The translations under genes and the position numbers were made by a program. A DNA stretch of 64,000 nt from Hyphomicrobium facile (GTDB lineage Bacteria; Pseudomonadota; Alphaproteobacteria; Rhizobiales; Hyphomicrobiaceae): positions 310,001 to 374,000 of the forward strand of contig NZ_FPCH01000002.1 in the NCBI RefSeq assembly GCF_900116175.1, written 5' to 3'. The notes beneath the pieces were generated by a model. That model worked only from the letters and a program-made list of their open reading frames with translations, was not told the origin of the DNA and searched no databases. Below, piece after piece: positions 6,146 through 22,557 of the stretch; position 1 is the stretch's first letter; the number at the start of each line of letters is the position of its first letter.

Positions 6146-6166
6146 GGCGATAAGCACGCTCGACCA

Positions 6167-7350: not shown

Positions 7351-7370
7351 ATGGTGCCTACAGGCATAAG
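7351..7370. promoter_or_regulatory. 20-bp operator, site 1 (Rieske operon 1)
   Basis: ATGGTGCC-TACA-GGCATAAG: one perfect half-site and one degenerate. It lies 57 bp upstream of the oxygenase start at 7294, where it could overlap the promoter. Confidence 0.65.
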
Positions 7371-7406
7371 CGCGAGCGCTGCATCGAGCATGCTGACGTG
7401 CATGCA

Positions 7407-7426
7407 ATGGTGCCGGGAGACACCAT
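7407..7426. promoter_or_regulatory. 20-bp operator, site 2 (between Rieske operon 1 and fae-like 1)
   Basis: ATGGTGCC-GGGA-GACACCAT, one mismatch from the perfect palindrome, with symmetric flanks CA...TG. It lies between the divergent oxygenase operon and the fae-like gene (start 7559) and could serve both. Confidence 0.7.
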
Positions 7427-7558
7427 TGGCGTCAGAGCCAATTCGAGCTTTCGATGTACGCGCGGCGCAATCTGAATGAGATGCCGTTGTCTGGTGCGGA
7501 GGACGAGACATCTCCTGCGCGGGCACAAGATACGACGTCCAGCAACTGAGAGACTTCA

Positions 7559-8101
7559 ATGAACAATCTACTTTTTCGCACCGGCGAGGCGACGGTTTTG
7601 GCAGCTAAGGGTCAGTATACCGATGCGATGCCTGAGGTGGTTATCGGAACGATAGACGGGCCGGTGGGGCAAGCCTTCGCGAGCATGATGGGTCAGTCCC
7701 TCGGACATACTCGCTTTTTCGTCATTCGAAACCTCAACCAGATGGTTCGCCCGGCCGCGATGATGACGTCGAAGGTGACGATTCCCAACGGAGCGTATGT
7801 CGGTCTCTTTGGTGGGGTTGTGCAGGCAGCGACGGGTGACGCAATCGTCGACTGCCTCAAAGAAGATATATTGCCGAAGGACAAGGCCAACGAACTTTGC
7901 ATGATTCTAACCATCTGGCTCGATCCTCGGTGTGCAGACCATGCCGAGCTCGACAAACGCGATCTATATCGCTGCAATTACGAGGCGACAAAGCTTGCTA
8001 TCGCACGCGCCATGCGTTGCGAGCCGTCGGTCGAGGAATTGATCTCTAACCGAGACAAGGTCCAACACTATGCTTTGACCGGTGTATTCCCGCCGAAATG
8101 A
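7559..8101 (+). CDS. Formaldehyde-activating enzyme (Fae) homologue lacking the catalytic histidine (copy 1)
   Basis: A 180-residue Fae-family protein. Fae condenses formaldehyde with tetrahydromethanopterin in methylotrophs. The hallmark C-terminal NYEATKLAIARAM block and the SKVTIPN block match the family. The segment that in Methylorubrum Fae reads A-H22-I-D-L-I-I-G reads A-M24-P-E-V-V-I-G here, so the proposed catalytic histidine is replaced by methionine. The second copy (21817-22356) has the same change, so it is not a sequencing slip. This points to a Fae-like paralogue whose activity may be altered: formaldehyde binding or sensing, or another C1 carrier. It is divergent from the formaldehyde-releasing oxygenase. 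A strong hairpin follows at 8123. Confidence 0.88.
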   Translation: MNNLLFRTGEATVLAAKGQYTDAMPEVVIGTIDGPVGQAFASMMGQSLGHTRFFVIRNLNQMVRPAAMMTSKVTIPNGAYVGLFGGVVQAATGDAIVDCLKEDILPKDKANELCMILTIWLDPRCADHAELDKRDLYRCNYEATKLAIARAMRCEPSVEELISNRDKVQHYALTGVFPPK

Positions 8102-8122
8102 CTTCATTATGAGTTGCACGGT

Positions 8123-8160
8123 TGAGCCGGAGCGGACAGGAGGATTTTCGCTCCGGCTCA
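8123..8160 (+). terminator. Hairpin after fae-like 1
   Basis: TGAGCCGGAGCG and CGCTCCGGCTCA form a perfect 12-bp stem with a 14-nt loop, 22 bp after the fae-like stop. There is no T-run on the plus strand, so it may stabilise the 3' end rather than terminate on its own. Confidence 0.55.
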
Positions 8161-8162
8161 CT

Positions 8163-8202
8163 TGCGTGCGTGAACAGGCTCATGCGTGTGTGAACAGGCT
8201 CA
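8163..8202. repeat. 20-bp unit repeated twice in tandem
   Basis: The units 8163-8182 and 8183-8202 differ at one position (TGCGTGYGTGAACAGGCTCA). They begin three bases after the fae-like hairpin. The function is unknown; it could be a binding site or a slippage duplication. Confidence 0.7.
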
Positions 8203-8239
8203 AGCGCAGTCGAAGATATCGGTACTAATTTTCCGCACA

Positions 8240-8259
8240 ATGGTGCCGGTGGACACCGT
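8240..8259. promoter_or_regulatory. 20-bp operator, site 3 (MBL/DMT1 unit)
   Basis: ATGGTGCC-GGTG-GACACCGT: two mismatches in the right half. It lies 306 bp upstream of the MBL-fold gene, and a second site follows at 8370. Confidence 0.6.
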
Positions 8260-8369
8260 ACGAGTCACGGAACAGCGATTTAATCGCGACAACATCCGCA
8301 ATCCGTCTGCACACCAAAGGCAGCTTCATCGAAGATGAGAAGTCATCGCCGCCTTAGCAAAGCGGCCGA

Positions 8370-8389
8370 TTGATGCCCTTAGGCACCAT
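8370..8389. promoter_or_regulatory. 20-bp operator, site 4 (MBL/DMT1 unit)
   Basis: TTGATGCC-CTTA-GGCACCAT: the right half is perfect, and the left half has two mismatches. It lies 175 bp upstream of the MBL-fold start at 8565. Confidence 0.6.
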
Positions 8390-8564
8390 AGTAATTGGAA
8401 GACGTTTCAATAAAACTCGGATTTCAATTTTTCGCCGGTTCGCACGAAGGTGCATCGAAGGAATGAGCAGGACCTCACTCGAGGCGAAAGCAGAGAGACT
8501 ACGCGGTTCAATCGAAGTTGAAACGACTTCGCTAATTCATTTGCCCAGTTCGAAAGAGACCACC

Positions 8565-9299
8565 ATGCAAAAATCCATCGCCGAGTTCTGGTATGGCGTA
8601 GAGGCATGCGATCATAAGATCGTGCGTTTGCGCGAGATCTGGACCGACCCCTATCTCGCAGGAAATATTTGGCTGGTACGAGGCTCGAAGCGAGACCTCG
8701 TCATCGACACGGGAACGGGCATCGTATCACCTCGCCCAGTGATCGATGCGATTGTCGATAAGCCGATTCTCGCGGTAGCGTGCGCCTGCTACTACGATCA
8801 CGCCGGCGGGCTTCATTTCTTCAGTGAAAGAGGCTGTCATCGATTGGATGCCGATAAAATCGCCAATCCGACTCTCGAATCATCTGTTGTGTCAACCTAC
8901 GTCAAGGAAGGCATGCTACTTGCGTGGCCCTATGATGGATTCGAGATCAAATCCTATAAAATGCGGGGTGCTCCGCCGACGATATGCTTTGACGATGGTG
9001 ACATCATCGATTTGGGCGATCGGCGACTAGAAGTTCTTCATGTCCCCGGAGTGACGCCCGGCAGCATGGTGCTCTGGGAAGCGGCGACAGGCAGTTTGTT
9101 TACATGCGATACGCTTTACGACGATCCTGTACTAGATCGCGAATTCGCTGCAGATGATTCCATCACTCTGATAGACAGCTTAAAGCGGCTTCGTGAGCTG
9201 CCGGTGAAGACCGTGTTCCCAGGACATTATCAATGTTTTGGACGCGAACGAATGCAGGAGATCATAGACCATATTCTCCTTTCGATGGCGCCTGTTTAG
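8565..9299 (+). CDS. Metallo-beta-lactamase-fold protein with degenerate Zn1 site
   Basis: A 244-residue MBL-fold protein. In place of the family motif T-H-x-H-x-D-H it has C73-A74-C75-Y76-Y77-D78-H79, and the third Zn1 histidine (normally in PGHTPGS) is Val163 in VPGVTPGS. The Zn2 ligands are all kept: Asp78, His79, His221 (FPGHYQCFG), and the bridging Asp182 (TCDTLYDD). It may therefore bind one metal or have moved to a new role. The hydrolase substrate is unknown; thioester or C1-adduct chemistry would suit the locus (inference). The start at 8565 follows a GAAAGAG-like ribosome site. The DMT gene begins 35 bp downstream, so the two are probably cotranscribed from the operators at 8240 and 8370. 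Confidence 0.8.
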   Translation: MQKSIAEFWYGVEACDHKIVRLREIWTDPYLAGNIWLVRGSKRDLVIDTGTGIVSPRPVIDAIVDKPILAVACACYYDHAGGLHFFSERGCHRLDADKIANPTLESSVVSTYVKEGMLLAWPYDGFEIKSYKMRGAPPTICFDDGDIIDLGDRRLEVLHVPGVTPGSMVLWEAATGSLFTCDTLYDDPVLDREFAADDSITLIDSLKRLRELPVKTVFPGHYQCFGRERMQEIIDHILLSMAPV

Positions 9300-9334
9300 A
9301 ACCGAAACATATGCGAAATTGCGAAGGACGCCAG

Positions 9335-10213
9335 ATGGCTTCAGCTGGGGACACTAGATCACGGCAGTTGGGTGTCGCTTTAGTCGTCGCATCGGCAATT
9401 TGCTGGAGCACTGCTGGACTTTTTGTCCGTGTTGCCAATCTTGATTCAGCGACGTTACTTTTCTGGTCTTCCTTTTCGGCGTGTCTAAGCCTCTTAATAA
9501 TCTGTGCCGTTCGGATTCGACGTGAACTAATCCGTCAAATATCGATGATAGGCATGCCCGAACTTCTTTATATTTTAATCTCTACCGTAAATAACACGAG
9601 TTACGTCATTGCCTTGAACTCCACCAGCATCGCGAACGTTATGACGATTTACGCGTCATTGCCTTTCGTCGCGACCATCGCCGCATTTTTTTTGCTAAAG
9701 GAGCGCGTTAGCATACGCTTCCTACTATCAGGGGGGATGGCGATGCTGGGCGTCGCTATCACTGCGGGCGCCGCTGGTACGGCAAACGATATTTACGGAC
9801 TGATTGCAGCATTCATTTCGACGTCATGTTTTGCGGTGCAGCTTGTGCTGGCGAAACGTTACCCAAAAATGGACATTCTACTGATCACTGCTCTCTCCGC
9901 AGGTGTTTCGACCGTGTTGTTTCTACCGTTCACGGATTTCGCTTCACCGACACGTGGTCAGCTGCTAGGCGGCGTTTTATATGGAATTATTCCATGTGCC
10001 GTTGGACTTCCGCTCGTACTAGCAGGTGGCCGTCGGGTTAAGTCCGGAGAAGCGGCGTTCATTACGATGTTGGACGTGGTGCTCGGACCCATTTGGGTGT
10101 GGCTGTCCTTTGGGGAGCGACCAACTGATTACGCATTAGTTGGTGGTGCTATGGTTTTGGGCGCGGTGGCATGGTATCTTTCGAAAGAGGCTGTGCCATC
10201 CACCGTGTCGTGA
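9335..10213 (+). CDS. EamA/DMT-family transporter 1
   Basis: An inner-membrane transporter of 292 residues with the ten-helix, two-EamA-repeat pattern. The opening helix (ALVVASAICWSTAGLFVRVANLDSATLLFW) and the second-repeat GLIAAFISTSCFAVQLVLAKRY are typical. It is a paralogue of the DMT gene at 12188-13081: the same CWSTAGLFVR.ANLD.ATL motif, SIANVMTIYASLPFVAT and KSGEAAF/GLLTMLD/E..LGPIWVWL.FGE occur in both. Its role is probably export or uptake of an amine or its oxidation product (inference). GAAGGA precedes the ATG at 9335; an upstream ATG at 9311 is possible. It ends before a region holding a weak operator-like sequence at 10243. Confidence 0.85.
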   Translation: MASAGDTRSRQLGVALVVASAICWSTAGLFVRVANLDSATLLFWSSFSACLSLLIICAVRIRRELIRQISMIGMPELLYILISTVNNTSYVIALNSTSIANVMTIYASLPFVATIAAFFLLKERVSIRFLLSGGMAMLGVAITAGAAGTANDIYGLIAAFISTSCFAVQLVLAKRYPKMDILLITALSAGVSTVLFLPFTDFASPTRGQLLGGVLYGIIPCAVGLPLVLAGGRRVKSGEAAFITMLDVVLGPIWVWLSFGERPTDYALVGGAMVLGAVAWYLSKEAVPSTVS

Positions 10214-10242
10214 TGACGTAACGAGGTCGGCCCTTAACTTGG

Positions 10243-10262
10243 CCAGTGACCGTTGGCACCGT
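10243..10262. promoter_or_regulatory. Degenerate operator-like sequence
   Basis: CCAGTGAC-CGTT-GGCACCGT: only the right half resembles the 20-bp operator. It lies between the DMT1 stop and the 3' side of tmm, with no gene start nearby, so it may be a relic or chance. Confidence 0.25.
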
Positions 10263-10360
10263 AAAAATGCGAGTGACCGCATTCTTCATCCTTCGGTAGA
10301 CAGGTTGCCAACCGCACTCTTGGCGTTCCGAGAATTTTGCACTTCGGATGGACCGGTTGA

Positions 10361-10531
10361 TCATCGGTAGTCTATGGAACTACCGCTGCTCCGAACGATC
10401 CTCGACGCCTCGACGAGGGAGTCCGCGGCACCCGCTTCGAGCGCGGTCTTCTCAAGATCGCGAAAGATATCTCTCAAGGTGGACAGCAGCTTTTTCGGAT
10501 AGGTCTTCAGGATGTAGCGCTGCGTCCGCAT
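10361..10531 (-). CDS. Possible 56-residue ORF or gene fragment
   Basis: In the 485-bp gap between DMT1 and tmm the minus strand has an open frame from an ATG at 10531 (MRTQRYILKTYPKKLLSTLR...), rich in helix-forming residues and free of the arginine/serine bias of shadow frames. The frame is also open upstream of this ATG for a few codons. I do not recognise it; it could be the end of a decayed gene. The rest of the gap shows nothing clear. Confidence 0.25.
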   Translation of the reverse strand: MRTQRYILKTYPKKLLSTLRDIFRDLEKTALEAGAADSLVEASRIVRSSGSSIDYR

Positions 10532-10698
10532 CCATTGGTGACGCCCAGCCGATTCATCTTAACAAGCAAGGTGGACGGTTCGAGCAAGGAACGGTCTGCC
10601 ACGAACAAATCAAAGCCTCCAGGAGCTCAGTGCTGAGCAGGTCAGCGAACCGATCTCTCAGCGAGACCGATCCGCCATACTTGCAAATCGTCTTGCCG

Positions 10699-12063
10699 CT
10701 ATTCGGCAGCCGCCTTCGTTTCCGGCTGATTGAGAAACGCCTCCAACGAATCGTCGAGGGCCTTCATCCAGGGGGTGTGATGCGCAGGCGCCGTCGTGCC
10801 TGTTTGAAGCGACGTGTGCGACTGGTCGCGATAAGTCAGGATGTTATCCATCTTATGATGTTCCCACCGCTTGAACGTCTTCGCCACACCGTCGACATCG
10901 AGACGCGGATAGTCCGTTGGCGTAATCAGATCGCGGACGTACTCTGTCTGGAAATCGATCGCCTCAGTCGCGTCGACGATTGCTGCTTCTTTTTCGGTCC
11001 ACCTCTGAATATCGGCTTCCTGTTCGGCGCGCGGCGGCAGCTTGATGCGACCGAGAACGACATCTCGCGCATACCAAGCCTGAGCATCAAACATGTTGAA
11101 CGTATAGAATTGGTCCTGCATGCCGATGTACATCAGCTTCGGGTTGTCGAGCCAAAAGATGCCCTTGTAGAGGGACTGCGGGTAGAGCCTGTTGCGCGAC
11201 TTCAGGCGCAACGAGTCCTCCATGAATGGATGATGGTGGAGGTAGCCAGTGCAAAGGATGATGGCATCGACGGCCTTCTTCGTCCCGTCCTTGAAATAAG
11301 CAGTCCTGCCGACGACTTTTTCAAGGAGCGGGACCTCTTCCATGCCTTCCGGCCACTTGAAGCCCATGGGCTTCGTCCGCCAGGAAAACGTGACGGATTT
11401 GGCACCATACTTGTAGCACTGAATACCGATGTCTTCCGATGAGTAGCTCGCGCCTACGCACAGCACGTTCTTGCCCGCGAACTCATCTGCGGAACGGAAG
11501 TCGTGAGAGTGCAACGTGCGACCGAGAAATTTATCGAGCCCCGGAAATTCCGGAACGTTTGGTGTCGAGAAGTGTCCGCTGCATCCGAAGACGTAATCAA
11601 ATTCGGATGACGAGATCCTGTCGTTGACCAGATCTTTGACCGCGACCGTGAATTTCTGCGTATCTTTATTGAAGGTTACGCTTCGCACCGTGTGGCTGAG
11701 TTTGATGTAAGGGAGGATGCCGCTGCGCACGATGCGGCCCTTGATGTAATCGTGAAGCACCGCGCGCGGAGGGAACGAGGGAATTGGACGGCCGAAATGC
11801 TCTTCAAACGAGTAGTCCGCGAACTCGAGGCATTCCTTCGGTCCGTTCGACCACAGATAGCGGTACATGCTGGCATGGACCGGCTCTCCGTGCTCGTCGG
11901 TTCCGGTGCGCCAAGTATAATTCCAGATTCCACCGCAATCGCTTTGACGCTCGTAACAGACCAACTCGGGAATTTGCGCGCCCTTTCGCCGTGCGCTTTC
12001 GAATGCGCGCAAAACTGCCATGCCGCTCGGGCCAGCGCCAATTATCGCTATTCGCTCTGTCAT
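10699..12063 (-). CDS. tmm: Trimethylamine monooxygenase (flavin-containing)
   Basis: An FAD/NADPH monooxygenase of 454 residues that converts trimethylamine to TMAO. The FAD motif GAGPSG is at residues 9-14, the FMO signature F-x-G-x3-H-x3-F is FLGRTLHSHDF, and the NADPH motif is GASYSS. Blocks such as WNYTWRTGTDE.GEPVH, MYRYLWSNGPKECLEFADY, ILCTGY.HH.PF and FNMFDAQAWYARDV match bacterial Tmm of Methylocella and roseobacters closely as I recall them. It lies downstream of DMT2 on the same strand with a 124-bp gap that holds no operator, so it is probably transcribed with DMT2 from the site at 13147. TMAO demethylase, its usual partner, is not in the window. Confidence 0.92.
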   Translation of the reverse strand: MTERIAIIGAGPSGMAVLRAFESARRKGAQIPELVCYERQSDCGGIWNYTWRTGTDEHGEPVHASMYRYLWSNGPKECLEFADYSFEEHFGRPIPSFPPRAVLHDYIKGRIVRSGILPYIKLSHTVRSVTFNKDTQKFTVAVKDLVNDRISSSEFDYVFGCSGHFSTPNVPEFPGLDKFLGRTLHSHDFRSADEFAGKNVLCVGASYSSEDIGIQCYKYGAKSVTFSWRTKPMGFKWPEGMEEVPLLEKVVGRTAYFKDGTKKAVDAIILCTGYLHHHPFMEDSLRLKSRNRLYPQSLYKGIFWLDNPKLMYIGMQDQFYTFNMFDAQAWYARDVVLGRIKLPPRAEQEADIQRWTEKEAAIVDATEAIDFQTEYVRDLITPTDYPRLDVDGVAKTFKRWEHHKMDNILTYRDQSHTSLQTGTTAPAHHTPWMKALDDSLEAFLNQPETKAAAE

Positions 12064-12187
12064 ATCGTGTCCTTTCGACGTTATTCGCGTTGAGTTAGCG
12101 GGTTAAAATTCTGCAATCGGTCTTCTCACTGGCGCGCGAGAGTGTTAGTGGCGAATGCGGGATGTGGTTTTCGCGTGCCTCTGGGCT

Positions 12188-13081
12188 TCAGCTGGGAGCT
12201 GGCTCCGGCAAAGGTTGCCTTTCGATCGATAGGTACCAGGTGACCGCGCCCAGCGCGGTGGCGGCACCTACGACGGCTTCAATCGTCGGTTCCTCGCCGA
12301 AGAACAGCCAGACCCATATCGGCCCAAGAACGATCTCGAGCATGGTGAGGAGTCCGGCTTCCCCGGACTTGATCATGCGTCCACCGACGAGCGCGAGGTT
12401 GATGCCGAGTCCGTAGGCAAGGAGCCCGTAGAGGACGCATCCGCTGAGTTGAATCAGCGAAGGCACTCCGTAATTCATAAAGGGGGCGCAAACGGCGGCC
12501 GCTAACCCTGCAGCAATCGCACTGGCCAGAAGAACATCAAGGTTGGCATAACGCTTTGAGACGACGAGCATGACCGCGAACGCGACAGTCATCAAAAAAC
12601 TTACGATCAGTCCGATGGCATCATTGATCGTCGCGGCGGCGCCTGCGGTGATAGCGATGCCGGCCATTGCAATGATGCCCGCGACGATAAACTGGCGACT
12701 GACTCGTTCGTTCAGCCAGAGGAAAGCGATAGCCGTCGCAACAAGGGGCAATGACGCATAAATCGTCATCACATTCGCAACGCTGGTGTACTGCAACGCA
12801 AGAACGTAGCTCGTCGCGCAAAATGCAGCGATGATCACGTACACCAAACCCGGCCAACCGATCCCGAGGATCGCCCGCCAAAGACCGCCCCGGAGGCGGA
12901 CGGCACAAACGACGCCAAGCCCAAGACACGCCGACATGGCGTACCAGACGACAAGAGTCGCGATGTCGAGGTTTGCCAGACGTACAAATAGACCTGCCGT
13001 GCTCCAGCAAACGGCCGAGGCTGTCACAAGCGCGACGCCCATCCGTCGCGTGCCCCAAAAGTCAGCCTGCTCCATAGTCAT
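12188..13081 (-). CDS. EamA/DMT-family transporter 2
   Basis: A 297-residue inner-membrane transporter with ten predicted helices in two EamA repeats, and a paralogue of DMT1 (shared CWSTAGLFVRLANLDIATLVVW, SVANVMTIYASLPLVAT, IKSGEAGLLTMLEIVLGPIWVWLFFGEEPT). It is the first gene of a minus-strand unit that continues into tmm. DMT transporters are often found beside tmm in TMA-oxidising bacteria, so transport of TMA or a product is a reasonable guess. The operator at 13147-13166 lies 66 bp upstream of its start. Confidence 0.85.
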   Translation of the reverse strand: MTMEQADFWGTRRMGVALVTASAVCWSTAGLFVRLANLDIATLVVWYAMSACLGLGVVCAVRLRGGLWRAILGIGWPGLVYVIIAAFCATSYVLALQYTSVANVMTIYASLPLVATAIAFLWLNERVSRQFIVAGIIAMAGIAITAGAAATINDAIGLIVSFLMTVAFAVMLVVSKRYANLDVLLASAIAAGLAAAVCAPFMNYGVPSLIQLSGCVLYGLLAYGLGINLALVGGRMIKSGEAGLLTMLEIVLGPIWVWLFFGEEPTIEAVVGAATALGAVTWYLSIERQPLPEPAPS

Positions 13082-13146
13082 TCAAGCTCGACCTCGCGAT
13101 GTGTGTCTTTCACATCCCGATTATCGTCCTCGAGCTTAGGGCCACA

Positions 13147-13166
13147 ATGGTGCCGCTTGGTACTAT
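13147..13166. promoter_or_regulatory. 20-bp operator, site 5 (DMT2-tmm unit)
   Basis: ATGGTGCC-GCTT-GGTACTAT with flanking CA...TG. The left half is perfect and the right half has two mismatches. It lies 66 bp upstream of DMT2 (minus strand). Confidence 0.68.
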
Positions 13167-13334: not shown

Positions 13335-13354
13335 ATGGTGCCACCTGGCACCAT
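13335..13354. promoter_or_regulatory. 20-bp operator, site 6 (tmoXVW-like operon), perfect palindrome
   Basis: ATGGTGCC-ACCT-GGCACCAT: both halves are exact reverse complements. It lies 60 bp upstream of the solute-binding-protein start at 13414 and is the best copy in the window, so it defines the consensus. Confidence 0.75.
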
Positions 13355-13413: not shown

Positions 13414-14388
13414 ATGTCCCGCCAGCTCATCATCTCTCTCCTTGTCTCGTTCGGACTTCTTGCGTTCACGTGCGATGGCAACGCTGCTTCTGTTCCTGAA
13501 TCGAAAGAGCCCATCAAAATCGCGCTGAACGAATGGACCGGCCAGAACGTGACGGCCAAAGTTCTGGGCGGCATCTATGAATCCATGGGATACAAAGTCG
13601 AATACGTTACCGCCGGAGCCATGCCGCAGTTTACTGCGATGCAAGAAGGCAAGCTGACGACCCAGCCTGAAGTTTGGACAAATCTTGTCGGCGAAGCCTA
13701 TCCCAAAGCGCTTGAGACCAAGACCATCGTTGAGCTGGGACTGCTTGGGCTGAACAATTACGAGGGCTGGGCGTATCCCAAATACATGGAGCAGATGTGT
13801 CCCGGGCTGCCCAGGCTCGAAGGGCTGATTGCTTGCAAAGATAAGCTCGCAACTCCCGAAACCTTTCCCAAGGGACGCATCCTCGCCTATCCCTCAGATT
13901 GGGGAACGGCATCCGCGAAGCTCGTCGCAGGAATGAAGCTTCCGTTCGTTGCAGTGCCCGCAGGCAGCGAAGGAGCCGAGATCGCAGAAATCAAAGCAGC
14001 GTTCCTCAAGAAGGCACCGCTGGTGCTGATGTTTTGGAAGCCGCACTGGGTCCATGCAGTCTACGATATGGACTGGGTGCAGATCGACCCGCCCTACAGC
14101 GACGCGTGCGCAACGGATCCCAAGGTCGGCCCCAATCCCGATACGACCGACGACTGCGGCTTTCCGCAGGCGCGCGTCGTCAAATCGGCCTGGGTGGGTA
14201 TGGAAAAACAATGGCCGGCTGCCTTCAGCGTTCTCAAGAATTTCCAGTTTGATGGCACTGAGCAGGGCAAATTGGTTTACGAGATCGACCAGAAAGGTCG
14301 CAAGCTCGACGATGTCGTTGCCGAGTGGTTGAAATCCCACGAAGGCACTTGGAAGCCGTGGGTGACCACCGCGACCGCCAGCAACTAA
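13414..14388 (+). CDS. tmoX: TMAO/betaine-type ABC solute-binding protein (TmoX-like)
   Basis: A periplasmic binding protein of 324 residues, with a Sec signal peptide (about residues 1-25, ending near GNAAS) and an OpuAC/ProX-type ligand-binding fold. Aromatic residues in NEWTGQN, QPEVWTN, EGWAYP and FWKPHWVH would supply the cation-binding aromatic cage for a quaternary ammonium or N-oxide. The position beside tmm, and a downstream ATPase plus unusually long permease, match the TMAO transporter TmoXVW. A glycine betaine transporter is the alternative, since sequence alone does not settle the ligand. GGAGA lies about 10 nt before the ATG. The operator at 13335 heads the operon. Confidence 0.8.
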   Translation: MSRQLIISLLVSFGLLAFTCDGNAASVPESKEPIKIALNEWTGQNVTAKVLGGIYESMGYKVEYVTAGAMPQFTAMQEGKLTTQPEVWTNLVGEAYPKALETKTIVELGLLGLNNYEGWAYPKYMEQMCPGLPRLEGLIACKDKLATPETFPKGRILAYPSDWGTASAKLVAGMKLPFVAVPAGSEGAEIAEIKAAFLKKAPLVLMFWKPHWVHAVYDMDWVQIDPPYSDACATDPKVGPNPDTTDDCGFPQARVVKSAWVGMEKQWPAAFSVLKNFQFDGTEQGKLVYEIDQKGRKLDDVVAEWLKSHEGTWKPWVTTATASN

Positions 14389-14477
14389 TCCCGACAGAAC
14401 AATAGGCGCGCTCGATCCTGGGCGCGTCTACCAATTGCCGCAAAGAGCAAAGCCCCTACGGGCGGGAGGGATCAAAA

Positions 14478-15572
14478 GTGAACTTTCAATTGAGAGATGC
14501 GTACACCCCACATCCAGTGTCATCAAATGCCAAACTAGCCTGCGCAAATCTCTGGAAAGTCTATGGTCCGAAGGTAGGCTATTACTTCGATACCAAGGGC
14601 TACATCATCGATCCGCAGCTGCTCGCAAAGCGCATGCGCGACGAGAAGCACATCCCAGCCGTTGCCAACGTTTCCCTCGACATTCCCGAGGGTGAAATCT
14701 TCGTCATCATGGGATTGTCCGGGTCCGGCAAGTCCACAGTGTTACGCTGCCTCGCACGTCTGCTTGACCTCTCTCACGGTCAAGTCGTTCTCGACGGTCA
14801 AGATATTTCGAAACTGACCGAGCGCGACCTCATTGATGTTCGACGCCACAAGATGGGGATGGTGTTCCAACATTTCGGGTTGATGCCGCATTTAACGGTC
14901 ATCGATAACGTCGCTTTCCCTCTCAAGATCCAAGGTAAGCCAAAGCAAGAACGGCTGGCCCGCGCGCACGAAATGATAGAACTCGTTGGCCTTCACGGCC
15001 GCGAGGACGCCTATCCGCGCCAGCTGTCCGGCGGTCAGCAGCAGCGCGTCGGCATTGCGAGATCGTTGGCGGTTGGCCCCGAGGTTTGGTTTCTCGACGA
15101 GCCGTTCAGCGCGCTTGACCCCCTCATCCGTCGTCAAATGCAGGACGAGTTTCTTCGCCTGCAAAAGCAGCTCAAGAAAACGATCGTCTTCGTCACGCAC
15201 GACTTCATAGAAGCCATGCGTCTCGCGGATCGTATTTGCGTGATGAAGGACGGCTTTGTTGTACAGGTCGGCACGCCGGAGGAGTTGGTCTCGCGTCCCG
15301 CCAATGACTACGTCCGCTCGTTCGTCGGCGACGCTCCGCTCGCGAAAGTGTTGCGCGTCGGGGCGATCATGAACCGGCACATCGCAGATGAGCATCGCGC
15401 CATAGCCACCACGAAGATCTCCGCGTCGGCCAAGCTCGAAGAAGCGATGACGTTGTTCCGCAATGAGAGCAGTGTCCTCAATGTCTGCGACGAGGAGGGG
15501 CAGGAGATCGGCAGCCTTTCGGCGTTGCAAGTCGTTCAAGCGCTTGCGGCTAAGTCGAGGATCGCGCCGTGA
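14478..15572 (+). CDS. tmoV: Quaternary-amine/TMAO ABC transporter ATPase (TmoV/ProV-like)
   Basis: The cytoplasmic ATPase of the transporter, 364 residues. It has Walker A GLSGSGKST (79-87), signature LSGGQQQRVG, Walker B VWFLDEP, and the switch histidine in VTHD. A C-terminal tail (from about residue 295) resembles the CBS region of OpuA/ProV ATPases (AIMNRHI...A..KLEEAM..F....SVLNVCDEEG). The start is a GTG at 14478 with GGGAGGG 8 nt upstream. It sits 89 bp after the binding-protein gene and overlaps the permease by four bases (GTGA), so translation of the two is coupled. Confidence 0.85.
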   Translation: MNFQLRDAYTPHPVSSNAKLACANLWKVYGPKVGYYFDTKGYIIDPQLLAKRMRDEKHIPAVANVSLDIPEGEIFVIMGLSGSGKSTVLRCLARLLDLSHGQVVLDGQDISKLTERDLIDVRRHKMGMVFQHFGLMPHLTVIDNVAFPLKIQGKPKQERLARAHEMIELVGLHGREDAYPRQLSGGQQQRVGIARSLAVGPEVWFLDEPFSALDPLIRRQMQDEFLRLQKQLKKTIVFVTHDFIEAMRLADRICVMKDGFVVQVGTPEELVSRPANDYVRSFVGDAPLAKVLRVGAIMNRHIADEHRAIATTKISASAKLEEAMTLFRNESSVLNVCDEEGQEIGSLSALQVVQALAAKSRIAP

Positions 15573-17665
15573 GTGGAGAACGCCAAACCAGATCAAATCT
15601 CGCCGGCACGCTCGATATGTCGTGGAAAGATATGTCTTGGCTCCTAATGGGCCTGCTCGCCGCGATCGCATTGTATGCCGCACCAAATGTGACATGGTTG
15701 GGAACGTTTCCCGAGCATTGGGGCCTTCCCATTTCCGCGTGGACGAACGCGATCCTGGCTCCGATGGTCGTAGGCTTGCAGGGCGCGACACGCGTCCTCA
15801 GCCAAGTTATCGGCGCGCCAATGTCCGCAGGCCGCGCCGTGCTCGATTGGACGCCGTGGAGCACGGTGACATTGGCATTTTTCCTTCTCGCCTATTGGAC
15901 GGCGGGAATTCGAACAGCGTGTTTCACGTTGGCATCGTTCCTGTACATCGTCTCGGTGGGCTTCTGGACGCCCACGATGAACACGATTGCTCAGATCGGG
16001 TTGGCCATACCTATTGCCATTCTCTTAGGCTTTGCGATCGGAACGCTCGCGGCTCGCTACCCCCGCTTGAACACCGCTACGCAAGCGAGCCTCGATTTCA
16101 TGCAGACGATACCGACGTTCGCATATCTTATCCCGATTTTGCTGTTGTTCGGCTTTGGTCCCGTCGTGGGGCTGATCACCAGCATCATTTATGCGATGCC
16201 TCCGATGATCCGGAATACCATCCTCGGCCTTCAGCGCGTGCCGCCGGAATTACGCGAGTCTGGACGCATGAGCGGCTGCACGCCCTTGCAGGAGTTTTGG
16301 TGGGTGCGTGTGCCCGCCGCGACGCCCCAGCTGCTGGTGGGGCTCAATCAGACCACCATGGCCGCCTTTTCGATGATCATCATCGCTTCCGTAATCGGCG
16401 GATCACAAGACATCGGCTGGGAAGTCCTCAGCACGATGCGCAAAGCGCAATTTGGAGAAAGCCTTGCCGCAGGCGTCGTCATCGCGGTCTTGGCGATGAT
16501 CCTCGATCGCGTCAGCTGCGGGTTCACGCAACGCTATGTCCACGGTGAACAATTTCACACCAATCGCTATTTCTGGATCGCTTCACTCGGAGCTTTGTTT
16601 GCGTCGGTGGCGCTCGCGAGCTTGGTGCCTTCTCTCTGGGTCTGGCCCGACGCGTGGGTGATCCGGCCGGCTGCTCCACTGGATACCGCCGTGGACTGGA
16701 TTACCGCGAACTACGGCACTAGCCTCAACGCTCTAAAAACGACAGCCTTCTATTACTTTTTGCTGCCGCTCAAAATCGGTCTCGTGCAGGCAGTGACGCC
16801 AATGACCTGGGGCCTTTCGTTCGATGGACCGGTGCAGATCGGATATTGGGCAATCGCTGCCCTCGCCGTCGGTGTTGCAACAGTCTACTCCGATCGCGCG
16901 GCAGCATCGATTATCGCGGTCATCGCGATACTCTTGTTCTACGGCACCACAGGCATCCCGTGGCCCGTGTTCATCGCGATTGTCACCCTCGCGGCTTATC
17001 AGGCCGGAGGGTTTCCCACGGCAGTCTTCGCGTTCTTGGCGCAGCTGTTCATTCTAGTATCCGGATTTTGGCCGGCTGCGATGCTTTCGGTCTATTTGTG
17101 CGTAGCGGCCGTGGCAATCTGCATCGCGATCGGAGTCTCATTGGGAGCTGCCGCTGCTAACAACGATCACCTTTCCGCTCTCCTACGTCCCATCAACGAC
17201 GGTTTGCAGACCGTTCCCCAGTTTGTTCTGCTCATACCCGCTTTGATGTTTTTCCAGGCCGGCGATTTTACTGCGCTGATCGCCATCATTCTGTACGCCA
17301 TCGTCCCGGCGATAAAATATACCGAAGCCGGCTTGCGCAACGTTTCGCCTAACTCCGTCGAAGCTGGGTTGGCATTGGGGTGCACGAAACGACAAATGTT
17401 TTGGCAGGTGCGGTTACCGCAAGCCGTTCCTGAAATCCTGCTCGGTGTGAACCAGACGATTATGTACGCGCTCGCGATGCTGGTTATCGCAGCCCTCGTC
17501 GGCACCACCGACCTTGGTCAGGAGGTCTACATCGCGCTCGGTAAAGCCGATGCCGGAAGCGGGCTTGTCGCGGGCATTTCTATGGCGCTGATCGCCATGA
17601 TCGCCGATCGTGTGCTCCAAAATGCGGCTTCGAGCCGAAAAGCGGCACTCGGGTTGCCGGTATAA
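15569..17665 (+). CDS. tmoW: Double-domain ABC permease (TmoW-like)
   Basis: A membrane permease of 698 residues with two BPD-type permease modules in tandem. Each has a QTIP/QTVPxF...PxLxxF segment and an ATP-coupling EAA loop (ESGRMSGCTPLQEFWWVRVPAATPQ..., then EAGLALGCTKRQMFWQVRLPQAVPE...). Ordinary ProW is about half this length. The repeat means one polypeptide can form the whole channel, as in the TMAO transporter permease. It starts at a GTG that overlaps the ATPase stop. It is the last gene of the operon and converges on the second reductase gene. Confidence 0.85.
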   Translation: MSGERQTRSNLAGTLDMSWKDMSWLLMGLLAAIALYAAPNVTWLGTFPEHWGLPISAWTNAILAPMVVGLQGATRVLSQVIGAPMSAGRAVLDWTPWSTVTLAFFLLAYWTAGIRTACFTLASFLYIVSVGFWTPTMNTIAQIGLAIPIAILLGFAIGTLAARYPRLNTATQASLDFMQTIPTFAYLIPILLLFGFGPVVGLITSIIYAMPPMIRNTILGLQRVPPELRESGRMSGCTPLQEFWWVRVPAATPQLLVGLNQTTMAAFSMIIIASVIGGSQDIGWEVLSTMRKAQFGESLAAGVVIAVLAMILDRVSCGFTQRYVHGEQFHTNRYFWIASLGALFASVALASLVPSLWVWPDAWVIRPAAPLDTAVDWITANYGTSLNALKTTAFYYFLLPLKIGLVQAVTPMTWGLSFDGPVQIGYWAIAALAVGVATVYSDRAAASIIAVIAILLFYGTTGIPWPVFIAIVTLAAYQAGGFPTAVFAFLAQLFILVSGFWPAAMLSVYLCVAAVAICIAIGVSLGAAAANNDHLSALLRPINDGLQTVPQFVLLIPALMFFQAGDFTALIAIILYAIVPAIKYTEAGLRNVSPNSVEAGLALGCTKRQMFWQVRLPQAVPEILLGVNQTIMYALAMLVIAALVGTTDLGQEVYIALGKADAGSGLVAGISMALIAMIADRVLQNAASSRKAALGLPV

Positions 17666-17984: not shown

Positions 17985-18998
17985 CTATTCGACGACCATC
18001 GTCGATGCAGAGACGAAGGGATCGGCGTGACAGTCGGATGGAGTGACCCCCATCTCCATCGCAAACTTCTGGCAATTCGCAACCAATCCAGGCGAACCGC
18101 AGGTATAGATTTTGTGTCCTTGGAGGGTCTCGAAGTGGCGCCTAAGCTCAATAAAAACGTCGGTTGTCCTGGCGGCATCGATGCCGTTGGCGCGGGTAAT
18201 GACCGGGAAATAACCAAATCTCGGGTACTTTTCGGCGAGCTTCAGCATTTCTTCGTTTTGATAAAGTCCTTTCGCCTCGCGCGCGGAATGGTAGATGCGT
18301 ATGTCGTGGCCGGGCATTGATGCCAAGGCGTCTAGCAATATCGATTTCGCCGGTGCGAGTCCCGTGCCGCCGACGACCATCGTAATTGGTCCTGGGTGCT
18401 CTTTGCGGAGGTAGGCGCTTCCAAACGGAGCATTCAAGACGAACCGGTCCGACGGTTTGCACTTCTCGTATACGTGCTTACTGACCTTCCCGTGTTTGTA
18501 ATACTCGATGTGAAATTCCAATTCCGCCGCACCTGGGCGATTGGCGAACGAATATTCCCGCGCTGGAAGATTGGGGAAAGTGAGCGTGGCGAACTGCCCG
18601 GCGCTAAACATGGGCGAAGGGCTCGTGCAGGGCTTGGCCTTGAGGATAGCGATCTCCGATGACACGCGGTCTATCGACGTCACGACGCACTCGTACTTGG
18701 CTGGGGTGAACGTGTCTGCGTCCTCAATGAATTCTACCTCGCAGTCGCTTGTGGGCATCGCGCGGCAGGCGAGGATGATGTTTTCGAACTTTTCTGCCTC
18801 CGTGAGTGCCGTCGGATCATATGTTTTGTGCGTGACCGTGCCCTTGCGCAAGATGGACTTGCACGAGGAGCAATTGCCCTGACGGCAGGCATAGGGATAG
18901 TCGAGTCCCGCCTTCAACGCCTCGTCCAGTATCGAGAACCCTCTCCGCACCTCTAACGTAGTCTCGAATTGGGGAATCGACACCTTAAAGTTGGCCAT
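17985..18998 (-). CDS. Rieske oxygenase reductase, N-terminal [2Fe-2S] + FAD/NAD (copy 2)
   Basis: The 337-residue electron-transfer partner of oxygenase 2. It has the same architecture as copy 1: a ferredoxin domain with cysteines 38, 43, 46 and 78, then flavin motif REYSFAN, then NAD motifs GGTGLAPAKS and CGSPGLV. I chose the ATG at 18998, with GAAGGACGAG just upstream and the first ferredoxin strand at residue 4. The longer frame starting at 19067 would read through the hairpin at 19024-19052 and is unlikely. It is downstream of oxygenase 2, with 73 bp between them holding that hairpin, so its expression may be lower than that of the oxygenase. Confidence 0.87.
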   Translation of the reverse strand: MANFKVSIPQFETTLEVRRGFSILDEALKAGLDYPYACRQGNCSSCKSILRKGTVTHKTYDPTALTEAEKFENIILACRAMPTSDCEVEFIEDADTFTPAKYECVVTSIDRVSSEIAILKAKPCTSPSPMFSAGQFATLTFPNLPAREYSFANRPGAAELEFHIEYYKHGKVSKHVYEKCKPSDRFVLNAPFGSAYLRKEHPGPITMVVGGTGLAPAKSILLDALASMPGHDIRIYHSAREAKGLYQNEEMLKLAEKYPRFGYFPVITRANGIDAARTTDVFIELRRHFETLQGHKIYTCGSPGLVANCQKFAMEMGVTPSDCHADPFVSASTMVVE

Positions 18999-19015
18999 TA
19001 CTCGTCCTTCGATCT

Positions 19016-19052
19016 TAAAATAAACGCTGCGCACGGCCTCCGTGCGCAGCGT
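19016..19052 (-). terminator. Strong hairpin between oxygenase 2 and reductase 2
   Basis: 19024-19036 and 19040-19052 are a perfect 13-bp inverted repeat with a 3-nt loop (arms ACGCTGCGCACGG and its complement). On the minus strand it is followed by TTTATTTT, the look of an intrinsic terminator. It sits 20 bp after the oxygenase stop and about 25 bp before the reductase ribosome site, so it probably causes partial termination or protects the upstream mRNA end. Confidence 0.7.
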
Positions 19053-19071
19053 CAAGTGGCCTCGCAATATG

Positions 19072-20259
19072 TCAGCGCCTGTCAGCGCTCATAGCGTTGT
19101 AGTAGATGGACTGAAAATGGTGGATGCCGTGCTCGCTGGATGAGGATGCTTTGTGATCGCCTAACCCGTCGCTCGATCTACCTTCCCCGACAAGCTTTTG
19201 GTCGATAACAAGCCTGCCCTGCGAGTATGCAACAGAATGGAGACCACGCTGCACGCTTTCCACTAGGCCGATATCTTCCGGCTGGAGAACGTCCTTGATG
19301 TATTCCATCGCAGCCTTCTCTTCCTCATTGGGCATCGCCTCATCGAGGAAGAAATCCCAGTGCTCATACGTGGTCTCTGGGCCTGTCGGCATGATATGCA
19401 TGAACGACAAATTTCGGCGGCCGGGGAAAACGTTGAAAGTAACGTTGGGCCATAGATACCAAGCTGCGTACATCAGCTGGGCGCCCTGCTGATTTTTGTC
19501 GACCTTGTACGCCGAGTTTTCCTCTCGCGCGGGGGCTATGTGGCTCGAGCAGATCGCGAAGTTCTTGGTCTGATAGATGCCGTGGTCGAAGAGCTCTACG
19601 AGGGCCGGATGCGCCGGCGGGCAGTGGTAGCACTCCTGGAAATTCTCGACGACATTCTTCCAGTTCGCTTTGATTTCGAACGTCTGACGACCCGCGTAGA
19701 CCAGCGTTTCTGGAGTATCAACATACTTGCGGACGTCTGCCTCGAAGTCGCCCGATGTCTCAGCGAGCGACTTGGCGTTGAGATCGATGTTGATCCAAAC
19801 AAACCCAAGGAAAACCTCGAGCTTCACAGGCTTCAGACAAAACTCTTCCGTCTTGAAACCGGCGACATTCTCCAGCACAGAGTTTGAGCGAAGTTGGCCG
19901 TCAAGCTCGTACTGCCAAGCGTGATAGGGGCAAGTGATAGCACGCGTCTTCCCTTCACCCTGTAGCAACTGGTGGGCCCGGTGAGAGCAGACATTGTGGA
20001 AGGCGCGAAGGTTGCCATCGCGACCGCGCACGATAGCGATACTTTGATCGCCTATTTTGACGGTGCGATAGGCGCCGGGGGCCGCGAGTTGGCTCGCGTG
20101 ACAGACGAAGTTCCAGGATTTGTAGAAGATCTTTTCTTTCTCGAGTTCGTAGATCTCGCGATCAAAATACAGATTTGCAGGAAGGGTGTACGAATGCGCG
20201 GGATCGTTTGGCCGAAAGCGGTCGAGCCCGAAGAGTTCCTCATCGTTTTTCTGGAGCAT
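19072..20259 (-). CDS. Rieske non-heme iron oxygenase, quaternary-amine N-demethylase type (copy 2)
   Basis: A 395-residue oxygenase paralogous to copy 1. The Rieske cluster uses C91, H93, C110 and H113. The catalytic segment ENFQECYHCPPAHPAL gives Glu209 as the probable bridging residue and H212/H217 as iron ligands. Blocks shared with copy 1 include FYKSWN/FYRSWN, DQSI, CSHRAH.LLQG.GK..AITCPYHAW and VQ.GLHS. Differences near the C-terminus (an extra segment around VGEGRSSDGLGDHKASS) and through the middle suggest a different amine substrate. AGGTGA precedes the ATG at 20259. The operator at 20366 lies 107 bp upstream. Glycine betaine is one candidate substrate, but this is not proven. Confidence 0.86.
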   Translation of the reverse strand: MLQKNDEELFGLDRFRPNDPAHSYTLPANLYFDREIYELEKEKIFYKSWNFVCHASQLAAPGAYRTVKIGDQSIAIVRGRDGNLRAFHNVCSHRAHQLLQGEGKTRAITCPYHAWQYELDGQLRSNSVLENVAGFKTEEFCLKPVKLEVFLGFVWINIDLNAKSLAETSGDFEADVRKYVDTPETLVYAGRQTFEIKANWKNVVENFQECYHCPPAHPALVELFDHGIYQTKNFAICSSHIAPAREENSAYKVDKNQQGAQLMYAAWYLWPNVTFNVFPGRRNLSFMHIMPTGPETTYEHWDFFLDEAMPNEEEKAAMEYIKDVLQPEDIGLVESVQRGLHSVAYSQGRLVIDQKLVGEGRSSDGLGDHKASSSSEHGIHHFQSIYYNAMSADRR

Positions 20260-20365
20260 TTGAAGTCACCTTTTCTTTGCGAAATGCAATGGCCGACGCC
20301 CGCTTGGTGAACGCAGCCGAAGCCATACCCTGACGCTATTTCTGGGAATGAGCCGGCAGACAGCA

Positions 20366-20385
20366 ATGGTGCCGGTTGGCACTAG
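20366..20385. promoter_or_regulatory. 20-bp operator, site 7 (Rieske operon 2)
   Basis: ATGGTGCC-GGTT-GGCACTAG, two mismatches in the right half, preceded by CA. It lies 107 bp upstream of oxygenase 2 on the minus strand. Confidence 0.68.
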
Positions 20386-20490
20386 TGGCTTGCTCGCAGT
20401 CGATGAATTATTGGAAAGGGTGCGCCCTATTTCGCGGCATCCGGCCCGCGATGGAGACGAGCGACTAACCTAAGCGGCCGAAGCTCGCTA

Positions 20491-21600
20491 TTACTCGTCC
20501 TCGGAGGCGTTGCACGGCAGCGTGCGCAGTTTCAGGTTCGCCAGCTGCCATTTCAGCTGATTGGCGAACGGCATGAGCGCGGTGACAAGCTCCCTCTCGG
20601 AGGAGACGTCCAATTTTCGATAGATGCGCAAACGACGGTTCTTAACCGAACCCTTTGATATCCGCAGTCGCTGCGCAATCGCGCCAGTACTGAATCCGTC
20701 AAGTGTAAGCGCGATGATGTCTCGTTCGCGTGGTGTCAATTGATCAACAATCGACGACGATGCTCGCTCCCCGGCTTCGCTGTCCATAACGCCTTCGCCG
20801 ATATGGTGAAGAAGAAGGCCCCCGGGGGCGATCGAGTTCATGCAGTCGAGTTCCATCCCCCTGAAAGGCAATGCTCCGTCGGCGAGTTGCTGGCGGATTT
20901 CATCATACGACAACGACCACTCGATATTTCTTAGTGCCACGTCCGCTTCCGCAAGCTGGCGCCACTTCGGCGTGGAATAAACAAGCTTGCCATGGCGATC
21001 GAAAATGGCGGCTGGCCTGTCTTGGAACGACGCTGGCGCATGCGCTGCACTATGCATCGCTGTCATTAGCGTCCGCGTGTGAGCCTGATGCAGGCCGTGA
21101 ACGATTGGAAAGAAACGTTCAATGCGTTCGATGTCCTCCTTGGTAAAGCGATCGGCTTTTCTCTCGAAGAACAGCGACAGGCAAGATCTGCCGACCGACG
21201 GAAGGAAAATGGCCAGCTCGTCGGTGAACTCCATTTTCTTCATGAAATCGAGGCAGTAGAAATTTTTGTCCGCAGCCGACGGAAGTGCCGTTTCCATGGT
21301 CTCAACGCGGGCGACCCTGTTTGAGCGCCAGGAGCAGAAATAAGGATCCGTCGAGCGCGGTTCGGCTCCCAAGTAGTACTGGACGATGTTTGAACTAATT
21401 TCTTTCGTATGCAGGACGTCAGGATCGCAACCGGGCGCGTAGCGGACGATCCATCCGGTCTCATGCGGGATAAGCGACCCGATCAATTCCAATAGTCGCA
21501 AGTGGAAGCCCAGCTCGCCGATTTCAGAGGAAGCGGCATTCAACGATTTGGACACGTCCTCCCATTCGCGCGGCTCAAACGAGACCAAACAGCTCTCCAT
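20491..21600 (-). CDS. LuxR/NarL-type HTH transcription regulator (copy 2)
   Basis: A 369-residue paralogue of the regulator at 2001-3071. The N-terminal sensory region shares the FLPSVGRSCLSLFFERK and FFPIVHGLHQAHTR patterns, and the C-terminal LuxR HTH lies around residues 285-345 (LTPRERDIIALTLDGFSTGAIAQRLRISKGSVKNRRLRIYRKL). It has no response-regulator receiver domain, so the signal is probably a small molecule. It sits between Rieske operon 2 and the second fae-like gene. A lone half-site (TTGGTGCC, 21670-21677) lies 70 bp upstream, which would fit autoregulation (inference). Confidence 0.85.
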   Translation of the reverse strand: MESCLVSFEPREWEDVSKSLNAASSEIGELGFHLRLLELIGSLIPHETGWIVRYAPGCDPDVLHTKEISSNIVQYYLGAEPRSTDPYFCSWRSNRVARVETMETALPSAADKNFYCLDFMKKMEFTDELAIFLPSVGRSCLSLFFERKADRFTKEDIERIERFFPIVHGLHQAHTRTLMTAMHSAAHAPASFQDRPAAIFDRHGKLVYSTPKWRQLAEADVALRNIEWSLSYDEIRQQLADGALPFRGMELDCMNSIAPGGLLLHHIGEGVMDSEAGERASSSIVDQLTPRERDIIALTLDGFSTGAIAQRLRISKGSVKNRRLRIYRKLDVSSERELVTALMPFANQLKWQLANLKLRTLPCNASEDE

Positions 21601-21746
21601 CGCTCAGTCAAATGACACGCTCTTAGATGCGGTCTGTTTGTTCAGCGCGTCAATAGGTCGGTCAAACTATTGGTGCCCGGGACAGAATTTAGGCAAAAAG
21701 GGTAACCGCCTTAGCGCAGTCAACAAGACCCCGGTTCTTGCGGCGC

Positions 21747-21787
21747 AAAAAACGCGCGCCCCCGACCTTGGCGAAGTTGAGGGCGCG
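21747..21787 (-). terminator. Intrinsic terminator after fae-like 2
   Basis: CGCGCCC (21755-21761) pairs with GGGCGCG (21781-21787), and the minus-strand transcript continues into six T's (21747-21752). It starts 30 bp past the fae-like 2 stop and shields the LuxR gene behind it. Confidence 0.75.
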
Positions 21788-21816
21788 AGTTTTCCATCGC
21801 CGAAAGGCGACCAATC

Positions 21817-22356
21817 TCAACCAGGGAAGACGTCTGCCAGCGCGTAATGTTTGATCTTATCGCGGTTAGCAATCAGCTCGTCGACTGTAGGCTCACCCTT
21901 CATCGCTCTGCAGATCGCCAGCTTTGTTGCCTCATACTGGCAACGATAGAGATCCTTCTTGTCGAGTTCCTTATGATCCGCAACGCGGGGATCCAGCCAA
22001 ACCGTTATGATCATGCAGATCTCGTTGGCTTTGTCCTTGGGTAGAATGCCGTCCTTCAGACAGTCGACGATCGCGTCTCCGATCGCCCCCTGCACCACGC
22101 CGCCAAAGAGCTCGATATAGGCGCTGTTCGGAATCGTGACTTTCGATGTCATCAGTGCGGCTGGCCGCACTTGTTGGTTGAGATCGCGAATAACGAAGAA
22201 GCGTGTGTGCCCCATCGATTGCCCCATCATTCCCGCAAAGGCATGCCCAACTGGCCCGTCGACGGTGCCGATGACGATTTCAGGCATCGCATCAGTGTAC
22301 TGGCCTTCGGAGGCAAGTACCGTCGCTTCACCAGTAAGAAACACCAAGTTTTTCAT
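21817..22356 (-). CDS. Formaldehyde-activating enzyme (Fae) homologue lacking the catalytic histidine (copy 2)
   Basis: A 179-residue close paralogue of copy 1, by eye nearly 80 percent identical. It has the same conserved blocks (SKVTIPNSAY, QYEATKLAICRAM) and the same replacement of the catalytic histidine by Met24 in DAMPEIVIG. The start at 22356 aligns exactly with copy 1 (MKNLVFLTGEATVLA against MNNLLFRTGEATVLA); a frame extension to 22383 is less likely. It is a single-gene unit with its own operator at 22538 and its own terminator at 21747. Pairing of one Fae homologue with each oxygenase operon suggests a dedicated role with the released formaldehyde. Confidence 0.88.
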   Translation of the reverse strand: MKNLVFLTGEATVLASEGQYTDAMPEIVIGTVDGPVGHAFAGMMGQSMGHTRFFVIRDLNQQVRPAALMTSKVTIPNSAYIELFGGVVQGAIGDAIVDCLKDGILPKDKANEICMIITVWLDPRVADHKELDKKDLYRCQYEATKLAICRAMKGEPTVDELIANRDKIKHYALADVFPG

Positions 22357-22537
22357 AGCTCTCAGATTGTTGGACTGGCCCACGGAACTCGTTTGTTCGG
22401 ATCCGTCTTGAGCAGCGGTAGATCTATTGACTCCCGATGATCAAGTCAGCTCATCGGAAGTCTAAAAATCTCGGATCGCCAAGAGTGTCCCTGGGCACTA
22501 CCTCCCAAAAAACGAAGATGTGGGTCGGCCAGATTTT

Positions 22538-22557
22538 ACGGTGCCAACAGGCACCAT
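22538..22557. promoter_or_regulatory. 20-bp operator, site 8 (fae-like 2)
   Basis: ACGGTGCC-AACA-GGCACCAT followed by TG: one mismatch in the left half and a perfect right half. It lies 182 bp upstream of the fae-like 2 start on the minus strand. Confidence 0.7.

Follow-up and report, generated by a model that had tools for sequence, protein, structure and literature searches.

The 64-kb stretch of the Hyphomicrobium facile genome analysed here (the window; contig NZ_FPCH01000002.1, positions 310,001 to 374,000) contains a putative methylated-amine locus in which a palindromic DNA element recurs ahead of genes on both strands. The same locus holds, as an earlier note on this DNA had reported, two paralogous LuxR-type genes, here called LuxR1 and LuxR2 (32% identity). 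The relation between the palindrome and these regulators is the subject of this work. The genes, in window coordinates, are the following.

2001..3071, plus strand: LuxR1, GerE helix-turn-helix (HTH; PF00196), the paralogue in the other clade of the family tree
5120..7294, minus strand: Rieske oxygenase 1 and its ferredoxin reductase (Rieske1)
7559..8101, plus strand: fae-like 1 (fae1)
8565..10213, plus strand: MBL-fold hydrolase and EamA transporter DMT1 (MBL-DMT1)
10699..13081, minus strand: EamA transporter DMT2 and trimethylamine monooxygenase tmm (DMT2-tmm)
13414..17665, plus strand: ProXWV betaine/choline-type ABC transporter (tmoXVW-like)
17985..20259, minus strand: Rieske oxygenase 2 and its reductase (Rieske2)
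20491..21600, minus strand: LuxR2, GerE HTH (PF00196) and LuxR-type ligand-binding fold, proposed binder of the sites
21817..22356, minus strand: fae-like 2 (fae2)

The two Rieske oxygenases are 52% identical and the two Fae-like proteins 79%; the tmm product matches the trimethylamine monooxygenase family at 803.9 bits (cut-off 675).

Scanning the window with the pattern ATGGTGCC-N4-GGCACCAT at up to 3 mismatches returned eight matches and no others, all of them where the earlier note had placed its copies; the chance expectation is 0.20 (100 shuffles: standard deviation 0.45, largest count 2). Sequence common to the sites continues beyond the 20 bp of the palindrome as first described, so that the full dyad, CAATGGTGCC-N4-GGCACCATTG, measures about 24 bp. 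The copies had been assigned to six promoters; they in fact spread over five intergenic regions and precede seven transcription units, as deduced from gene order: Rieske1, fae1, MBL-DMT1, DMT2-tmm, tmoXVW-like, Rieske2 and fae2. The first copy, at 7351, is a site with a single good half. The list includes a degenerate ninth copy scored by position weight matrix (PWM) and indicates copies shared with a near relative of the host, genome G060; no strand is assigned to any of them.

7351..7370: copy 1, ahead of Rieske operon 1; one half weak
7407..7426: copy 2, 1 mismatch, ahead of fae-like 1; 56 bp from copy 1
8240..8259: copy 3, 2 mismatches, distal site of MBL-DMT1; also in G060
8370..8389: copy 4, 2 mismatches, proximal site of MBL-DMT1; G060 copy weaker (PWM 14.2)
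13147..13166: copy 5, 2 mismatches, ahead of DMT2-tmm (minus strand); also in G060
13335..13354: copy 6, perfect, ahead of the tmoXVW-like operon; also in G060
20366..20385: copy 7, 2 mismatches, between LuxR2 and Rieske operon 2; position matched in G060, two Aminobacter strains and Hansschlegelia plantiphila
22538..22557: copy 8, 1 mismatch, ahead of fae-like 2, perhaps also of LuxR2; also in G060
22482..22501: degenerate ninth copy, PWM 4.3, 56 bp from copy 8; G060 counterpart better preserved (L029:19003, PWM 16.3)

Both fae-like genes are thus preceded by a weak and a strong site 56 bp apart (7351/7407 and 22482/22538), and the fae2 pair recurs in G060 with the same spacing (L029:18947/19003). 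Upstream of LuxR2, at 21651-21672, lies CAATAG-N10-CTATTG, the outer arms of the operator around a different centre. It is also found in G060, the stretch being 92% alike overall in the two genomes, and may be a coincidence or an autoregulatory site.

We asked how often such sites accompany LuxR genes elsewhere. Searches with the LuxR2 protein, the own genome being counted in both, found relatives in 6 of 103 genomes of the taxonomic family (E 1e-30) and 18 of 397 of the order (E 1e-25). The sample fetched outside the own genome comprised 30 stretches from 22 genomes, with 27-89% identity to LuxR2. These were scored with a matrix built from the window's sites alone and, as control, with 200 column-permuted symmetric matrices. 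In 17 of the 30 stretches the LuxR gene had a site scoring at least 16 no further than 600 bp away, against a permuted mean of 0.075 and a maximum of 2; lowering the cut-off to 14 left the count at 17 (permuted mean 0.16). A second set of loci, from named taxa, came from a profile search with a 9-row alignment, earlier alignments having recovered no relative (two rows) or proved too divergent (30 rows, from 42 members); the mis-called frame L065_8921 (947 aa with a stop) was excluded from the family profile. The search gave 32 loci, reduced to 30 by exclusion of L178 and L179 (Bacillota, HTH only). They span Aminobacter, Pseudaminobacter, Hansschlegelia, Methylorubrum, Methylobacterium, Methylopila, Methylocella, Chelatococcus, Chenggangzhangella, Acetobacter and others, and 25 have a site scoring at least 14 within 600 bp of the LuxR gene. 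Merging the two sets, with six loci fetched twice (L151, L158, L154, L174, L170 and L169) counted once, gave 54 non-redundant loci, the sole criterion of choice having been similarity of the LuxR protein; 36 carry such a site within 600 bp and 46 carry one anywhere in the stretch. Comparison of 26 distinct sites on the LuxR side shows conserved arms around four variable central bases. Gene order can be shared as well: LuxR2, site and Rieske2 follow one another in Aminobacter aganoensis, Aminobacter sp. AP02 and H. plantiphila, and in Pseudaminobacter soli there are sites in the gap from MBL to tmm, behind LuxR2 and ahead of Rieske2.

The association was also approached from the motif. At up to 2 mismatches the motif alone is present in 70 of the 397 order genomes. 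A family member lies within 1.5 kb in 4 of 30 loci fetched in this way; the remaining 26 have none within that distance, which indicates that most weak hits are due to chance or lie far from the regulator. The protein search had not picked up three of the motif-fetched members (L100, L101, L104), which the family profile confirmed. Of the 26 genomes that have a full-length member, 11 carry the motif at up to 1 mismatch, versus 6 of the 371 that have none (Fisher p 9e-11 over the 397 genomes; 9e-10 with the own genome excluded), "full-length" meaning E below 1e-55, a cut-off set after the table was seen. Candidate scoring covered at most 5 per genome, so that members may be missed. Within the genus, a degenerate pattern is found in 4 of 6 genomes with a relative and in none of 16 without. 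The N in CAATGGTGNC-N4-GNCACCATTG and the degenerate genus pattern were drawn after the scored sites had been seen, which makes the positives partly circular and leaves the absence from family-free genomes as the fully independent part; the permuted-matrix test on the 30 stretches is free of this circularity.

A further link comes from the host itself. The 4.43-Mb genome was scanned by pattern and the resulting strings were scored with the matrix from the eight sites. The earlier note had named hundreds of hits lacking positional preference as the outcome that would refute its proposal, and the genome holds nothing of the kind: there are 42 places at up to 3 mismatches (1 for a reversed-pattern control) and, at up to 2 mismatches, 9 places, 7 of them in the amine locus. 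The window's eight sites rank at the top of the 42, as expected for a matrix built from them. The ninth, TTAGTGCCATTCGGCACTAT, is on contig C3, where it starts 74 bp beyond the stop codon of LuxR3 (L021:10865). LuxR3, at C3:155801, is the genome's one further full-length relative of LuxR2. Downstream of this site come an MsuE-type FMN reductase gene (215.8 bits, cut-off 212.5) and one for the dimethylsulfone monooxygenase SfnG (607.7 bits, cut-off 382.95).

The position of the palindromes relative to promoter elements was analysed with hand-made -10 weights. A -10-like hexamer begins 21 nt past the palindrome, reading toward the gene, the mean score at this offset being -0.46 versus -5.67 (standard deviation 1.77) over 50 offsets. 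With 3 nt of slack, the peak is matched by 6 of 1000 shuffles at any offset and by 1 of 1000 at offsets 19-22. On visual inspection Rieske1, MBL and DMT2 have a good hexamer; two examples are

7329-7324, minus strand: TATTTA, Rieske operon 1, copy 1
8411-8416: TAAAAC, MBL-DMT1, copy 4

The spacing puts the centre of the dyad near -43. The lux box is a 20-bp element whose usual place is near -43, and such a position suits an activator substituting for the -35 element.

LuxR2 models as a LuxR-type ligand-binding fold joined to a NarL-type HTH (predicted local distance difference test, pLDDT, 89.7 from a 31-row alignment), a result that concerns the fold only and says nothing of the ligand. In Foldseek the best match of the model is the ligand-binding domain of VqsR (TM 0.80 by target length), followed by QscR, RhlR and SdiA; phytochrome GAF domains come after the LuxR-type matches. 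The GerE HTH of LuxR1 and LuxR2, the modelled fold of LuxR2 and a 20-bp dyad in a lux-box-like place all recall the quorum-sensing receptors LuxR, TraR, QscR, SdiA and VqsR. Unlike these, neither LuxR1 nor LuxR2 matches Pfam Autoind_bind at E 0.001, and family members have about 345-380 aa, with an additional alpha/beta stretch ahead of the HTH (about residues 195-268 in the LuxR2 model). The half-site also differs, and the family genes sit among catabolic genes. The Pfam matches of LuxR1 and LuxR2 are to GerE and related HTH or sigma region 4 models; they include no receiver domain, unlike NarL/FixJ response regulators, and neither an AraC nor a GntR domain. Of 11 genomes in which the family occurs, 6 lack any match to LuxI (PF00765). 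The host has two weak matches, of 47.5 and 32.4 bits (cut-off 24), on contigs C5 and C3, and none on C4, the contig of the amine locus. The unmatched Autoind_bind and the genomes lacking LuxI make a pathway molecule a likelier ligand than an acyl-homoserine lactone; signalling by the latter is not favoured.

These data lead us to propose, with a probability of roughly 0.78, that the palindrome is the operator of a family of LuxR-type transcription factors and that the predicted binder at this locus is LuxR2. A LuxR2 dimer would occupy the 24-bp dyad, centred about 43 bp before the transcription start, and a small molecule from the amine pathway, filling the ligand-binding domain, would trigger activation. 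The activated units would serve uptake and oxidative demethylation of a methylated amine through the tmoXVW-like transporter, the two Rieske oxygenases, tmm, the two Fae-like proteins as formaldehyde-binding factors, and the other transporters. The preference for LuxR2 over LuxR1 and for activation over repression, like the gene functions, is what we infer. Two suggestions of the earlier note, that the shared site ties these genes into one regulon and that a LuxR-type protein is involved, gain support at the sequence level from the co-location of sites and family members (36 of 54 loci) from the co-occurrence across genomes and from the site beside LuxR3.

Several observations weigh against this proposal. 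Eighteen of the 54 loci lack a site within 600 bp of their LuxR gene, and eight of these (L071, L072, L074, L077-L080 and L082) have none across the stretch. The motif is present in the six genomes mentioned above that have no full-length member, one of which, G184, carries it with zero mismatches and has no family member on full scoring. No site stands immediately ahead of LuxR2, and to the eye the -10 hexamers of tmoX, Rieske2 and the fae genes are weak. Finally, the host genome has a second trimethylamine (TMA) cluster (C4:483410-493002; L184:5410-15002), with genes for a trimethylamine N-oxide (TMAO) permease (892.3 bits), haem N-demethylase-like and GcvT-like proteins (dmm-like genes), Tmm (808.9 bits) and Tdm (1204.7 bits), in which the palindrome is absent (best PWM score 3.4). 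This argues against a simple TMA regulon; the operator here marks the Rieske/Fae/tmm locus together with the sulfone genes of LuxR3. The presence of Tdm (C4:490705) also led us to reject the idea that a Rieske enzyme replaces a Tdm missing from the genome. A 302-aa gene divergent beside the second cluster has no Pfam or NCBIfam match.

The identity of the binder bears on LuxR1, which could recognise the sites alone or together with LuxR2. It is a family member encoded in the same locus, and the LuxR1-clade loci L073, L083 and L085 have sites scoring at least 20 nearby or within a few kb. In a midpoint-rooted tree, with long branches flagged, the family forms two clades, one with LuxR1 and nine others, the other, of 49 rows, with LuxR2, LuxR3 and the LuxRs of methylamine clusters; LuxR1 has a long end branch and its placement is less sure. 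The LuxR1-like loci L077-L080 and L082 are site-free across the stretch, and no site lies near LuxR1 itself. G060 has LuxR2 (89%), a LuxR3, Rieske2, tmoXVW, DMT2-tmm, MBL and fae2 (98%), with sites before fae2, Rieske2, tmoX, DMT2-tmm and MBL, and no match to LuxR1 at E 1e-30. It keeps, however, a C-terminal fragment of fae1 beside MBL (L030:13467-13751; residues 86-180, 87% over 95 residues), so the LuxR1-Rieske1/fae1 side may have been lost recently; this makes the retained sites less informative about LuxR1 and takes some weight from the case for LuxR2. On balance, sequence comparison makes LuxR2 the likelier binder, and a role for LuxR1 appears quite improbable.

Alternatively, the regulator might be a repressor seated on the -35 region and freed by an amine. 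The palindrome would overlie the -35 element, as this requires. A single preferred, lux-box-like distance to the -10 element is better suited to an activator, and LuxR-type receptors are mostly activators. Repression has a precedent in Ruegeria, where the GntR protein TmoR represses tmm (PMC13390433), and we regard it here as unlikely. As for the sites belonging to an unrelated regulator or a dispersed repeat, a MerR/XRE/cupin regulator gene (1082-1954) adjoins the locus and the six genomes with the motif and no full-length member would fit. The sites nevertheless accompany LuxR genes across several families and in Acetobacter, including 25 of the 30 named loci, and they keep their arms while the centre varies; a dispersed repeat is not favoured, and an origin of either kind is highly improbable.

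LuxR-type regulators that use a lux-box-like dyad are a known class, and the proposed factor would be one of them; the branch, operator and regulon appear to be undescribed in the searchable literature. What is new is an operator tied, on comparative grounds, to one regulator family across Alphaproteobacteria. In Ruegeria pomeroyi the AraC-type TmaR activates tdm and downstream genes, and TmoR represses tmm (PMC13390433). These resemble the proposed regulator in controlling TMA breakdown, but their DNA-binding families differ, and the word LuxR is absent from the main text of that paper. They are the printed regulators of aerobic TMA breakdown that we found, and the proposed LuxR family would be a third, unrelated one. 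DmfR of Paracoccus aminophilus is, like the proposed regulator, a LuxR-family activator of a pathway for a methylated compound, in this case the amide dimethylformamide (PMC4543880). The comparison was made through its presumed counterpart on plasmid pLVM1 of Methylobacterium sp. DM1, encoded two genes before a DMFA2_C protein. Membership of the family was rejected for this counterpart, which scores E 5e-6 against the family profile, versus 6e-109 and 2e-111 for two tandem LuxRs of pLVM1, and its stretch has no site scoring at least 10. DmfR is also the only LuxR named in the accessible literature pairing trimethylamine monooxygenase with LuxR (PMC4543880), and the listed titles and abstract openings, covering part of the matching literature and with most subscription literature outside their range, name no LuxR regulator of TMA or dimethylsulfone genes.

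The gene content of the related loci bears on what the family might sense. Among the 30 named stretches, 20 have a tmm homologue (at least 55%) and 5 a Rieske2 homologue (at least 60%), one of them with tmm too; 6 have neither, some being short or cut. Tmm reaches 826.2 bits (cut-off 675) in the Methylobacterium jeotgali stretch and TMAO demethylase 1096.7 (cut-off 1100) in that of Acetobacter peroxydans, and the TMAO-permease model (cut-off 690) is exceeded in Aminobacter aganoensis (786.5) and Methylocella tundrae (898.1). In A. aganoensis DSM 7051, the LuxR2-site-Rieske2-reductase array is followed by glutathione-linked formaldehyde genes and the TMAO permease with its own site. This strain (TH-3) is described as an isolate utilising tetramethylammonium hydroxide (PMC8235418), which suggests, short of showing, that Rieske2 demethylates a quaternary ammonium. 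On pLVM1, the two tandem LuxRs face a permease gene and DmmA-like genes in the vicinity of mau genes; a site of lower score (15.4) precedes the first LuxR. A family member and site variant (L180:7836) accompany mau and dmm-like genes there, and since the plasmid is predicted to be conjugative the module may be mobile.

It is tempting, if rather doubtful at present, to view the family as LuxR-type receptors that left quorum sensing and now sense methylated nitrogen and sulphur compounds in methylotrophs, commanding here an unassigned route for a quaternary methylammonium, possibly tetramethylammonium. After tmoXVW-like uptake, Rieske2 would release one methyl group as formaldehyde, which the Fae-like proteins would hold, and the TMA left over would be oxidised by Tmm. 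The findings suggest that a LuxR ligand-binding fold can serve catabolism without a partner synthase. They flag the two Rieske oxygenases and two Fae-like proteins as candidate amine-pathway genes, and provide a defined, predicted DNA site from which regulons might be read in sequences of Methylobacterium, Methylocella, Aminobacter, Acetobacter and their kin.

Two neighbouring regions deserve mention. The gene at 1082-1954, beside LuxR1, encodes a single protein combining MerR HTH, XRE-type HTH and cupin domains. On the other side, the interval 23084-34185 encodes a HerA-type ATPase, GmrSD and CHAT-domain proteins, and a SIR2_2 protein (24928-25827) adjoined by a frame (25664-26221) that gave no match; it is perhaps a defence island.

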